A stretch of DNA of 50,519 nt. It comes from Bacteroidaceae bacterium. Lineage in GTDB: Bacteria; Bacteroidota; Bacteroidia; Bacteroidales; Bacteroidaceae. Under the pieces are notes generated by a model, which had not been told where the DNA came from, searched no databases, and was given only the letters and a program-made list of their open reading frames with translations. Where the stretch lies: contig JAGAAL010000065.1 in NCBI GenBank assembly GCA_017615245.1, forward strand, positions 1 through 50,519. The letters are read 5' to 3'. The position numbers were made by a program, and so were the translations under genes. Positions 4,388 to 7,466 of this stretch are shown piece by piece. Every line of letters begins with the position of its first letter. Position 1 is the stretch's first letter.

Positions 4388-4566
4388 TAAATTCTCCTTG
4401 GATTTAGGCTCAAAACTCGGTTGGCTCTTATTTTTGGTCACGCCCCCTTTCCCATCTACTCCCCAAAAACGAACTATCCATAAGAACTAAGCGACCCACT
4501 TAAAGGAACTAAGCCGCTTGTTCCTTTCTCATGGAGCCGACTTCACAGTCTTCATTACAGACACAA

Positions 4567-4795
4567 GGGGACAGGGGGACAAGGGGACAAGCTTTTTCTG
4601 CGGTGTCACCCTGTCTCCTTTATTATCATCTACTACTAATCTTTAGATATTTAACTTAATTATTAATACAACTCACTTGTATATATCTCATTAATTAACT
4701 TACACGTTATAATACTAATGTCATACTATCAGTATTAGAATAAATAAAATGGTGTGCACCGTAAATTTTTGCTGTCCCCTTGTCCCTTTGTCCCC
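4567..4795. repeat. 229-bp inverted-repeat element with A+T-rich core
   Basis: The left arm, 4567-4610, is built from iterated GGGGACA(A) units, a T-run, then CGGTGTCACC. The right arm, 4751-4795, is nearly its reverse complement (inner GGTGTGCACCG, outer TGTCCCC iterations). The roughly 140-bp core is very A+T-rich and holds a hairpin, TAATACT ... AGTATTA (about 4710-4738). It encodes nothing. It lies just upstream of the cassette promoter and has the same architecture as 46508-46688. It is a possible non-autonomous mobile element or protein-binding site; nature unknown. Confidence 0.7.
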
Positions 4796-4820: not shown

Positions 4821-4852
4821 TTTGGAGGGTAATAAGATTAGTTGTATCTTTG
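4821..4852 (+). promoter_or_regulatory. Promoter of the IF2-N/nuclease cassette
   Basis: TTTG at 4821-4824 and TATCTTTG at 4845-4852 are 20 bp apart. The predicted start is near 4858, about 20 nt before the mini-ORF at 4881. An upstream block, CATTTTTCTTGAAAA (4804-4818), resembles those before the promoters at 3962 and 46819. Confidence 0.75.
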
Positions 4853-4880: not shown

Positions 4881-4934
4881 ATGGCAAGTAAGCTACAGCA
4901 GGCATTAGACCTGTGTAATAATAAAAAGCAATAA
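4881..4934 (+). CDS. Possible 17-residue leader peptide or gene remnant
   Basis: The first ATG after the cassette promoter opens MASKLQQALDLCNNKKQ and stops one base before the ATG of the IF2-N gene (TAAAATG). Its position suggests translational coupling or leader control, or the stump of a deleted first gene. Nothing in the peptide is recognisable, and the call rests on position alone. Confidence 0.35.
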   Translation: MASKLQQALDLCNNKKQ

Positions 4935-4935
4935 A

Positions 4936-5445
4936 ATGGCAATAAGGATAAGCAGTGTGATAAAAGAATTAAACGTTGGACTTCAGACCATTTTGGATTT
5001 CCTTTCCAGTAAGGGATACAAAATGCGAATAAGCCTTAACACAAAAATATCAGACGAACAATACGAACTTATCTGTAAGGAGTTCTCTTCTGATGCAAAT
5101 CTTAAGAAAAAGACCACTAAAAAGCTGTTGTCCCGTTCGATACTGTACGATTTCCTGGATGAACAAAAACCTCTTGATACTGAAGATAAAATCGATAAGT
5201 TGTTTGAACTATGTTACCAGATACATAAGCATATAAGTGAAGAAATATTTACAGATATACTAAAAAATACAGAGATAAGTTTACACTCTTATTTAGGCAG
5301 AAAGAAATTAGATTATGAAAAAAGCCAAATTAAACTCAAAATAAAAAAGAAGAAATTAGCAAATAAAAGAAAGCGTTCTGTATCGCCTTATAATAAAGAT
5401 GAGATAGTATATAAGAGAATACGAATTATTAGCACAGCGATGTAA
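4936..5445 (+). CDS. Stand-alone IF-2 N-terminal (IF2_N) domain protein
   Basis: Residues 1-57 (MAIRISSVIKELNVGLQTIL, then DFLSSKGYKMR and NTKISDEQYELICKEFSSD) look like the N-terminal domain of Bacteroidota translation initiation factor IF-2. The remaining 110 residues contain none of the GTPase or other IF-2 domains. The tail is helical in appearance and strongly basic (KLKIKKKKLANKRKR near 133-147), suggesting nucleic-acid or ribosome contact, which is inference. The gene is A+T-richer than the flanking housekeeping genes. It leads a cassette with the unknown protein at 5454 and the broken PD-(D/E)XK gene. It is too short and diverged to be infB, and I cannot assign a function. Confidence 0.7.
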   Translation: MAIRISSVIKELNVGLQTILDFLSSKGYKMRISLNTKISDEQYELICKEFSSDANLKKKTTKKLLSRSILYDFLDEQKPLDTEDKIDKLFELCYQIHKHISEEIFTDILKNTEISLHSYLGRKKLDYEKSQIKLKIKKKKLANKRKRSVSPYNKDEIVYKRIRIISTAM

Positions 5446-5453
5446 ATTATTTC

Positions 5454-6224
5454 ATGGCACTTGGAAATCACAAGTACAGGTACCTTGATTCAATAATAAT
5501 AGTTAACAGTTGTGCCCGACACGAAAAATTTCGTTCACAATTTATGATAGTAGACTCAATGACATATACAGAAATCCTTGAACATTTGAAAAAGGACTTA
5601 AAGATCGTGATGCATAAGTACGAGGAAGGTACTAAGCACTATCAGAAGTATGTGCGTTCGGCTAAGAACAGGGAACGTGTGTATTACGAGCCTATGAGGT
5701 TCAAGAGTGCTTGCGGTTTCAACTATGTAGTTTTATTCTTCAACGAAGGGGTTAACGTGCCTTCTAAACAACGATTGGGTAAAACGTTTTATGCTTGGTA
5801 TATACAAAAGAGAGGTTTCTATGCTATCACTTTTTCGTTGCTTGAAAAAGCAGTCTGGCATTTCACCATCTATACACCTCACTTTGTGGATCGATACAAA
5901 CTAAGAGTGTTGAAAGATATGTCTATCAGTAAGGCTGATGCATTCCATCAATATATAATGAAAAATATGAGGGTGGTTTCGCAAAAAGTAAAGAATCCTA
6001 GCGAGAAATATCCTAAAGATTACTGGACGGCTTGCAATGAAGGTCTATGTTTGTGTAATCAAATGGAGCAGCTTATTGTAGAGGTGAAGACAATCATTTC
6101 CTGGGATATGCTGAAACCGGATGAACAAGAATTTGCAATTAACGGGAAGCTACATATGCTTTCAAAAGGCTTTGATTTAGCACTCCCAGACGAAATATTT
6201 AGTGAGTATACAGAGGAAGAATAA
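5454..6224 (+). CDS. Uncharacterised protein of the IF2-N cassette
   Basis: The reading frame from 5454 gives 256 residues. The true start may be the internal ATG at 5544 (MIVDSMTYTEIL) or 5559 (MTYTEILEHLKKDLKIV), because the first 30 residues look unlike a conserved N-terminus and a short palindrome, ACGAAAAATTTCGT, lies just before 5544. The protein looks soluble, with mixed helix and strand and no signal peptide. One recognisable element is YTPHFVDRYKLRVLKD (about residue 133), which resembles a segment I associate with uncharacterised proteins in Bacteroides accessory regions; that is recollection, not a search. It begins 8 bp after the IF2-N gene and ends 24 bp before the broken nuclease gene. 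Function unknown. Confidence 0.7.
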   Translation: MALGNHKYRYLDSIIIVNSCARHEKFRSQFMIVDSMTYTEILEHLKKDLKIVMHKYEEGTKHYQKYVRSAKNRERVYYEPMRFKSACGFNYVVLFFNEGVNVPSKQRLGKTFYAWYIQKRGFYAITFSLLEKAVWHFTIYTPHFVDRYKLRVLKDMSISKADAFHQYIMKNMRVVSQKVKNPSEKYPKDYWTACNEGLCLCNQMEQLIVEVKTIISWDMLKPDEQEFAINGKLHMLSKGFDLALPDEIFSEYTEEE

Positions 6225-6248
6225 AATATTACAACAATACCTAATCAT

Positions 6249-7250
6249 ATGGAGAAAATAGCTAGATTGTGTTGGAACACAAAAGAATGGAGACGACCTT
6301 CGGGTAGGAAGGGGAAATCTGGATTAAAAGAATCATATGAAAATGAAAATGGTTTTGGTCATGAAGAATGGTTGCTAGACGATTCGAAAATCATGCCTGA
6401 CGGATATCATTATGGTTTTCTTGAGCAGCTTAGAATACAAGGGACAAAACATCATGGTAAGGTTTACGATATTCATCTCTACACCTTTAGCCCTACCAGA
6501 CAATGGGTGTATATTGGTTGCTTAAAGAAGGCAATCGGGGTATCGCCCATTGAGAGCTAAGAGGTCTATGACTATTATGAAAAGATGGGTTGGATAGAGG
6601 ATATGAAAAAAGATGTCCTATATGCAAAAGGAACTGTCAAAGACTTTACTGCCACATTTATGTTTAATGTGAAATTTAAATTTGAGGATGCAGTAATTAA
6701 CTATTCAAATCAACCAATTCTTGCAAAAAGCAGTATCCCTTCCCCTAGATATAACTTCATGGACAAAAAAAGAGGGTTCGTTTTTGAGAAGAATAAGGAT
6801 GGTAATACCATGATGTTAGATACAAGTATCTTTGAGCGAGTTGTTGAGGGTGGTAAGATTCAGATAGACCCATTGCATAAGAGAATACAGAATGCTGTTG
6901 TAGAGATACTGAAAGGACAATACACGAATCTACAATTAGAGACAAATCCTGATGATGCGGCTGATCAACGAATAGATATAAAGGGGTATTCAAAGAAAGA
7001 CCAAGAGTGGCATTTTTTTGAAGTAAAGACAGTATCCGCAAAAAGATGTATTCGTGAGGCATTAGGGCAGATACTGGAATATGCACATTATCCGAATGTG
7101 GCTCGAGCTAAGAAGTTTTTCATCATAGGTCCAAACCCTCCAGACGATAACGATAAGGCATATATGGAGTTGTTGCGTAAGAGATATAATTTGCCTATCT
7201 GGTTCAGATGGTATTCTTCAACGGAAAACAAATTGCATGAAAGAGTATAA
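6249..7250 (+). pseudogene. PD-(D/E)XK nuclease-family gene split by an in-frame TAA
   Basis: Two open segments, 6249-6560 and 6585-7250, are in the same frame. The bases between them read without a shift: ...VSPIES, stop (6558-6560), EVYDYYEKMGWIEDM.... Removing the single ochre codon gives one continuous 333-residue protein. The N-terminal half carries WNTKEWRRPSG, GKSGLKESYE and GFGHEEWLLD. The C-terminal half has a restriction-endonuclease-like core: D in RIDIKGY, then FFEVKT (E-x-K), then AKRCIREALGQILEYAHYP. Either the gene is inactivated, or the C-terminal segment restarts at ATG 6585 as a 221-residue nuclease. It is the last gene of the IF2-N cassette and is followed by a terminator at 7429. 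The biological role is unknown; restriction or defence is a guess from fold and context. Confidence 0.75.
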
Positions 7251-7382
7251 AGATATGCCGACGAAGAAATGGAGAAGGAAAGAAGGCACATTGGAAGAGG
7301 GGGGAAAAAGAATTGGTATGGAATTCCTATTTTTAAATGAGGCGAGGAGTTGATTCCGTTTAAAAAGAAATAATATGGATCA

Positions 7383-7403
7383 CCTCCCCCCCCTTAGGGG
7401 GAG
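7383..7403. repeat. CCTCCCCC/GGGGGAGG hairpin, dispersed family
   Basis: CCTCCCCC ... TTAGGGGGAGG forms a strong G+C stem in otherwise A+T-rich DNA. Related blocks occur at 23981-24020, 31562-31586 and 42411-42435, each near a gene end. Confidence 0.5.
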
Positions 7404-7428
7404 GAATAAAGTTGAAAATTGAAAATCA

Positions 7429-7466
7429 GGGACTTTGAGAGCAAATCTCAAGGTCCCTATTTTTAT
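7429..7466 (+). terminator. Intrinsic terminator of the IF2-N cassette
   Basis: GGGACTTTGAGA (7429-7440) pairs with TCTCAAGGTCCC (7446-7457) across a 5-nt loop, 12 bp with one G-T pair, followed by TATTTTTATATTT. It lies 180 bp after the last cassette gene. The A-rich flank also makes it usable from the minus strand, after the flavodiiron gene. Confidence 0.8.

Follow-up and report, generated by a model that had tools for sequence, protein, structure and literature searches.

The window analysed here is a whole stretch of 50,519 nucleotides of contig JAGAAL010000065.1, from a Bacteroidaceae bacterium (assembly GCA_017615245.1). It carries a small block in which an isolated N-terminal domain of translation factor IF2 (IF2-N), encoded by open reading frame 1 (ORF1), accompanies an orphan gene (ORF2) and a PD-(D/E)XK nuclease gene. 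On our best reading, phage defence in Bacteroidales makes recurrent use of IF2-N as an accessory or targeting module, and the window holds a split and probably decayed version. We give a probability of about one half to the whole explanation, in which the block is an acquired phage-defence cassette with a restriction-like nuclease, IF2-N is a binding module and ORF2 is a passenger. The first-pass annotation of this sequence had raised the idea of phage defence. That link is supported as a modular association, through two fusions of IF2-N to the nuclease and through three of five other IF2-N genes that lie beside BREX, type III restriction-modification (R-M) or Eco57I-type R-M genes; it does not extend to a fixed cassette, and the nuclease gene is interrupted. 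The ORFs on which the argument turns are the following.

4936..5445, + strand: ORF1, 169 residues, with an IF2 N-terminal domain (residues 1–55), an unassigned middle and a basic tail ending in RIRIISTAM
6249..6560, + strand: 5' portion of the nuclease gene, which codes for the N-terminal "GHEEW" module and ends at an in-frame stop
6585..7250, + strand: 3' portion of the nuclease gene, which codes for the PD-(D/E)XK domain and retains every motif residue

IF2-N domains, their neighbours and their fusions

Residues 4–55 of ORF1 are 61.5% identical to a Bacteroidales infB N-terminus over 52 residues (BLAST, E = 3e-15), and ORF1 matches the infB of its own genome at 42% identity (E = 7e-11). Over the first 55 residues, BLAST identities to infB N-termini range from about 34 to 61%. 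By these alignments, ORF1 is an isolated IF2 N-domain homologous to Bacteroidales infB. The domain call of the first-pass annotation is thus upheld by BLAST but not by the Pfam profile IF2_N (PF04760), against which ORF1 scores 13.8 bits (E = 0.049) with a curated cut-off of 25.3 bits. While residues 1–55 are homologous to the translation factor, the GTPase and tRNA-binding domains of IF2 are absent here, where the domain is either isolated or fused to a nuclease. Searches of solved structures, both by single sequence and by profile, returned no credible relative of IF2-N or of the nuclease, and scans of viral contigs with ORF1 and with the IF2-N protein of genome G440 returned no relative. 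A PADLOC match of ORF1 to GajB (E = 8e-4) rests on lysine-rich sequence and was judged chance-like.

A profile of the IF2-N domain (A1), which includes ORF1, matched 196 of 201 genomes of the family, and among the matches listed nearly all frames have the length of infB. Two matches were found in seven genomes, namely that of the window (G000), G409, G440, G457, G562, G579 and G584, and in each of them the second is distinct from infB: the window gene, one nuclease fusion, three genes beside defence genes and two without such neighbours. Within two genera, two matches occurred in 2 of 37 (G562, G457) and 2 of 19 genomes (G440, G608), and the second copy in G608 turned out to be a truncated infB. 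The best matches in G396, G427, G580 and G405, which lie in short frames, were likewise discarded, being infB-like over nearly the whole available stretch; G396 also has a second A1 match, at E = 0.009. A match in MT835665 that might have pointed to a phage origin is a full infB.

In G562, PglZ and BrxL precede the IF2-N gene and share its strand, with two small genes in between; the next gene lies on the opposite strand, and ORFs further upstream resemble BrxA, BrxB, BrxC and PglX by eye. The IF2-N frame of G457 comes after a type III Mod gene, a DUF1016-like gene, Res and a T5orf172-like gene (the DUF1016 and T5orf172 likenesses were read by eye). Ahead of the G440 gene are an Eco57I-type helicase-methylase gene and one for a type II methyltransferase, with AbiD and AbiL-like genes 3–6 kb away, AbiD at about 3 kb. 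The G409 gene has a damaged start.

One neighbour of the G440 gene (L107, 7372–8064) encodes a lysine-rich protein of 231 residues with a C-terminal tail, KIMYIPSGGQNKKY, that resembles the tail of the IF2-N protein, RIVSVPFGGMNKK. Kinship of this neighbour with the middle of ORF1 was dismissed as too weak (E = 0.05). The tail pattern VPFGGM[NK]K was also rejected as a marker of the IF2-N family: it occurs in 0 of 393 genomes of the order and in 11 stretches of a wider contig collection, of which the one that was read (L122) has the pattern in a gene that is not an IF2-N gene.

The G584 protein consists of 756 residues, with IF2-N at the N-terminus and a window-type nuclease domain at the C-terminus. 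It is included in the profiles A1 and A5; independently of any profile, its C-terminal end is 35% identical to a Vibrio tubiashii nuclease over 155 residues (E = 3.5e-17), which in turn is 30% identical to the window ORF over 224 residues (E = 2e-20). T5orf172, GmrSD-type and EcoRI-methylase genes lie on the opposite strand, 2–5.5 kb from the fusion. A second fusion, found later and absent from the profiles, is 61% identical to the G584 protein; it lies in IMG/VR contig L161, close to phage genes that look Mu-like by eye. Identity between the two is 78% over the first 50 residues and 82% at about 696–745, but it also reaches 84% at about 496–545, with 38% at about 596–645; they therefore represent a single fusion lineage, observed in two genomes.

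The genes of the block do not, in general, travel together. A single conserved three-gene system, and with it the conserved adjacency that would follow from the first-pass annotation, was sought across relatives and rejected: in the sister genome G574 the nuclease lies elsewhere, the neighbours of ORF2 relatives vary, and IF2-N is found at 3 of 16 nuclease loci (the window and the two fusions), adjacency being counted within stretches of 4–18 kb. The nuclease occurs at none of the five other IF2-N loci. Only the nuclease (6213–7246, 84%) and a leader motif are common to the window block and G574, where the nuclease gene is on the same contig as a region syntenic to window positions 7.7–22 kb, at a different place and with other partners. 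In the family, IF2-N (7 genomes) and the nuclease (3 genomes) co-occur in 2 of 201 genomes (P = 0.003), the two underlying searches differing in sensitivity.

These distributions bear on a rival explanation, that of chance neighbours, in which a decaying variable spot gathered unrelated foreign genes and ORF1 has no connection with the nuclease. It draws on the separation of the genes in relatives, on the interruption of the nuclease gene and its other partners in G574, and on a BLASTn comparison in which no empty site could be recognised next to the flavoprotein gene, six relatives with flanks of unequal length sharing no sequence 3' of that gene. It is opposed by the two fusions with the same nuclease family and by the three further IF2-N genes that have defence genes next to them, and we regard it as rather unlikely, though the strongest of the rivals.

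Several observations weigh against IF2-N as a defence module. The domain is absent from 13 of the 16 nuclease loci, and the co-occurrence falls to P = 0.06 without the window, which was chosen for it. No defence gene was seen by eye at the IF2-N loci of G409 and G579, the latter near a contig end, and a defence neighbour is not evident at the nuclease loci of P. xiamenensis, G083, G279 and G162. The IF2-N frame of G457 is still open where the contig ends, so a longer protein may be involved, and ORF1 has a tail without the SVPFGGM end present in two relatives. Finally, the neighbour proteins scanned at IF2-N loci had been picked by eye as likely defence proteins, and the matches give identities, not an unbiased rate. 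On the supporting side, in a small control, 1 of 10 neighbours of leader-motif sites (five loci) had a PADLOC match, a WYL-type regulator that also matched Cas3c.

A split gene in a modular nuclease family

The ORFs at 6249–6560 and 6585–7250 share a frame and are separated by the stop at 6558–6560, which leaves no uninterrupted reading frame for the nuclease in the window. In G574, an uninterrupted ORF of 333 residues runs from the first ATG of the shared frame and is 85% identical, with 47 of 333 positions differing, the stop included. Judged from this alignment, the two window ORFs are one nuclease gene cut by an in-frame stop. The first-pass annotation had counted three genes and called the third a PD-(D/E)XK nuclease. 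The block has four ORFs, of which the last two belong to one gene, and the third gene as then drawn covers only the 3' two thirds of it; the nuclease assignment itself is supported by the motif residues D, E-x-K and Q-x3-Y, conserved in 15 of 15 members of the family, that of the window among them. The motif spacing was set after a tighter first pattern had matched none, and a 96-residue fragment from G162 was left out of the 15.

The two halves of the gene have ratios of nonsynonymous to synonymous substitution rates (dN/dS) of 0.09 and 0.08 between the window and G574, and both are under purifying selection. The window nuclease is probably inactive or split. Alternatively, the stop may be an assembly or consensus error in an intact and active gene. 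A single stop in an otherwise open frame with such a dN/dS, in a genome that is 62% complete, would fit an error; against this, the window has no sign of low quality, and the V. tubiashii relative (plasmid; L012, 7628–8654) also reads in two overlapping frames and is thus interrupted or frame-shifted, so that breakage in this nuclease family is not unique to the window. We consider an error unlikely.

The cutting domain is constant among the members, and the N-terminal part varies, with five arrangements:

GHEEW module: window, G574, Phocaeicola, V. tubiashii and G083; part of it also in an HNH protein of V. gigantis
Second N-terminal module: Vibrio St2, P. xiamenensis and L162
Third N-terminal module, common with a McrB-like ATPase: L163, G193 and G279
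Fourth N-terminal module, which we take to be EVE-like: L164, Pseudoalteromonas HL-AS2 and the middle of G279
Fifth arrangement, IF2-N followed by about 560 residues: the G584 and L161 fusions

The ATPase that shares the third module is an AAA ATPase adjoining a McrC gene in Marinomonas. In Pfam, NCBIfam and PADLOC, no model matches the two window ORFs or covers the window-type nuclease, the intact G574 protein included. PADLOC PD-T4-1 matches two relatives, L163 and L157 (8.8e-30 and 2.8e-33), and PtuA matches the first part of G083. The nuclease thus appears to belong to a PD-(D/E)XK family whose window-type members are covered by no model used. The family is rare, being found in 5 of 393 genomes of the order and, by single-sequence search, in 3 of 201 of the family Bacteroidaceae, and a viral-contig scan with the G574 protein returned no relative.

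Many members lie near defence genes. The G574 nuclease is next to a PLD-helicase-DUF3427 gene (PADLOC mREase_IV) and a NERD gene, that of G193 sits between HsdR- and HsdM-like genes, and that of Phocaeicola neighbours AbiEii. In Pseudoalteromonas HL-AS2 the neighbours are AAA and PDDEXK_7/DUF2357 genes and an annotated HsdS; annotated neighbours are AbiH in V. tubiashii and TIR in Vibrio St2. Phage genes surround the nuclease by eye in L163 and L164. In the latter, a viral contig, the nuclease with the EVE-like front (5422–6348) lies on the opposite strand among phage structural-type genes, like prophage-borne cargo.

ORF2, the leader motif and the borders of the block

The remaining features of the block are listed below.

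4821..4852, + strand: motif TTTG-N20-TATCTTTG, presumably a Bacteroides-type promoter, read by eye
4881..4934, + strand: candidate leader ORF of 17 codons, with its stop 1 nt ahead of ORF1, read from the sequence
5505..5524, + strand: leader motif AACAGTTGTGCCCGACACGA, which recurs elsewhere and here lies 19 nt ahead of where ORF2 probably starts
5544..6224, + strand: ORF2, 226 residues, orphan Bacteroidales family with conserved H-x3-R-x3-R, start placed from seven relatives
7428..7458, + strand: strong intrinsic terminator, 13-pair stem and T tail

At the place of MIVDSM in ORF2, each of the seven relatives has a Met, and matches to them begin at residue 18 or later. For both reasons ORF2 probably starts at 5544 and not at 5454; its first-pass description as an unknown protein stands, no model giving a significant match. 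The neighbours at the seven loci vary, and five of the loci look ordinary. The B. finegoldii relative belongs to a plasmid-like record that also carries recombinase and integrase genes. Most likely, ORF2 is an unrelated passenger; the relative in G019, about 1 kb from DndD- and DndE-like genes (by eye; L056, 6046–9721 and 10791–11405), speaks a little against a pure passenger.

The leader motif is usually followed by AAT(N)AGGGTA and has sites in the window, L035, L037–L045, L051 and L054; sites in L028 and L032 resemble chance matches inside coding sequence. At 12 of 15 distinct sites an ATG lies 16–20 nt after the core, with AGGG in between at 11 (not in the window), and 11 of these 12 ATGs open an ORF of at least 83 codons, several of them secreted- or lipoprotein-like by eye. 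The CCC of the leader hairpin loop could pair with the GGG. The motif had no Rfam match and no paper hit in a literature search, and is a candidate translation-linked leader RNA. In G574, two direct copies (L009, 605 and 3350) flank a 2.7-kb defence-like cassette that consists of a 131-residue gene, the nuclease, a 119-residue gene and the NERD gene.

The composition and borders reported in the first-pass annotation were borne out. In 1-kb windows, G+C content is 33–38% over 4.5–7.5 kb, and in the flanks it is higher (44–49% at 0–3.5 kb, 40% at 3.5–4.5 kb and 44–56% from 7.5 to 22 kb). The promoter agrees with the motif read by eye at 4821–4852, which is not among the sites listed by a sigma-70 scan. 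For the terminator, the evidence is the long 13-pair stem and not the scan count, as the region has 4 sites and shuffles give 2.3 ± 1.8. Just upstream of the block there is a perfect 12-nt inverted repeat, ACAAGGGGACAG / CTGTCCCCTTGT, at 4563–4574 and 4772–4783, with longer 30-nt arms, 83% complementary, near it.

Proposed mechanism and relation to known systems

We propose that the block was acquired as a small cassette for phage defence. Its nuclease would be a restriction-like enzyme that combines a PD-(D/E)XK cutter with a swappable, target-recognising N-terminal module; since the frame stops early, between module and cutter, the complete enzyme has probably been lost, leaving at best two working pieces. 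ORF1 would be an IF2 N-domain that departed from translation to become a small binding module for defence loci, and it likely recruits the nuclease, or a defence complex encoded nearby, to nucleic acid or the ribosome. The recruiting role is suggested by the fusions, in which IF2-N occupies the N-terminal position that McrB-like or other modules take in other members. We infer that the cassette serves defence, that the modules and IF2-N have a recognition role, and that ORF1 and the nuclease act together.

The E. coli IF2 N-subdomain has been grouped with small putative DNA-binding folds. We favour a nucleic-acid-directed docking or recognition module, because of the position of IF2-N in the fusions and because DNA-targeting systems adjoin three of the five other IF2-N genes. 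A rival idea is translation sensing, in which IF2-N would mimic IF2 on the 30S subunit, report or block phage take-over of translation and switch on the nuclease or a neighbouring system. The resemblance to infB N-termini suggests that the domain may keep a host binding surface; a McrB-like module at the same end of other members and the DNA-targeting systems that the IF2-N genes accompany favour a DNA target instead, and we consider translation sensing improbable, the least likely of the alternatives. A more general form of the docking proposal is that Bacteroidales immunity captured IF2-N as a general docking module, which serves as an accessory gene ending BREX, type III and Eco57I-type R-M loci and which supplies the sensor half in a new PD-(D/E)XK defence nuclease that consists of a single protein; we place this just short of an even chance.

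Known systems invite comparison. PD-T4-1 (PADLOC PDLC04021) is a single-gene anti-T4 defence. The L163 and L157 proteins match its model over the N-terminal module, and L157 also into the cutting domain, whereas the window ORFs and the intact G574 protein carry the GHEEW module and lack a match. PD-T4-1 is tabulated under PD(D/E)XK nuclease in a table of PMC10952713. McrBC and other type IV restriction share one family module, that of the Marinomonas ATPase beside the McrC gene, but the block ORFs include no AAA+ ATPase or McrC, and module and cutter form one protein. BREX accessory genes resemble the IF2-N gene that follows PglZ and BrxL in G562, whereas no BREX gene was seen among the block ORFs. 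Literature searches, with subscription papers mostly outside their coverage, found no IF2-N accessory part of BREX and no description of a link between IF2-N and a nuclease, phage or defence.

If the best reading is true, IF2-N, a domain without a phage-defence link in the papers searched, would mark accessory genes, undescribed so far, in the BREX and R-M systems of gut bacteria. It would also add a modular nuclease family whose window-type members escape the models used, and would raise the testable question of why a translation-factor domain guides or regulates DNA-targeting immunity.

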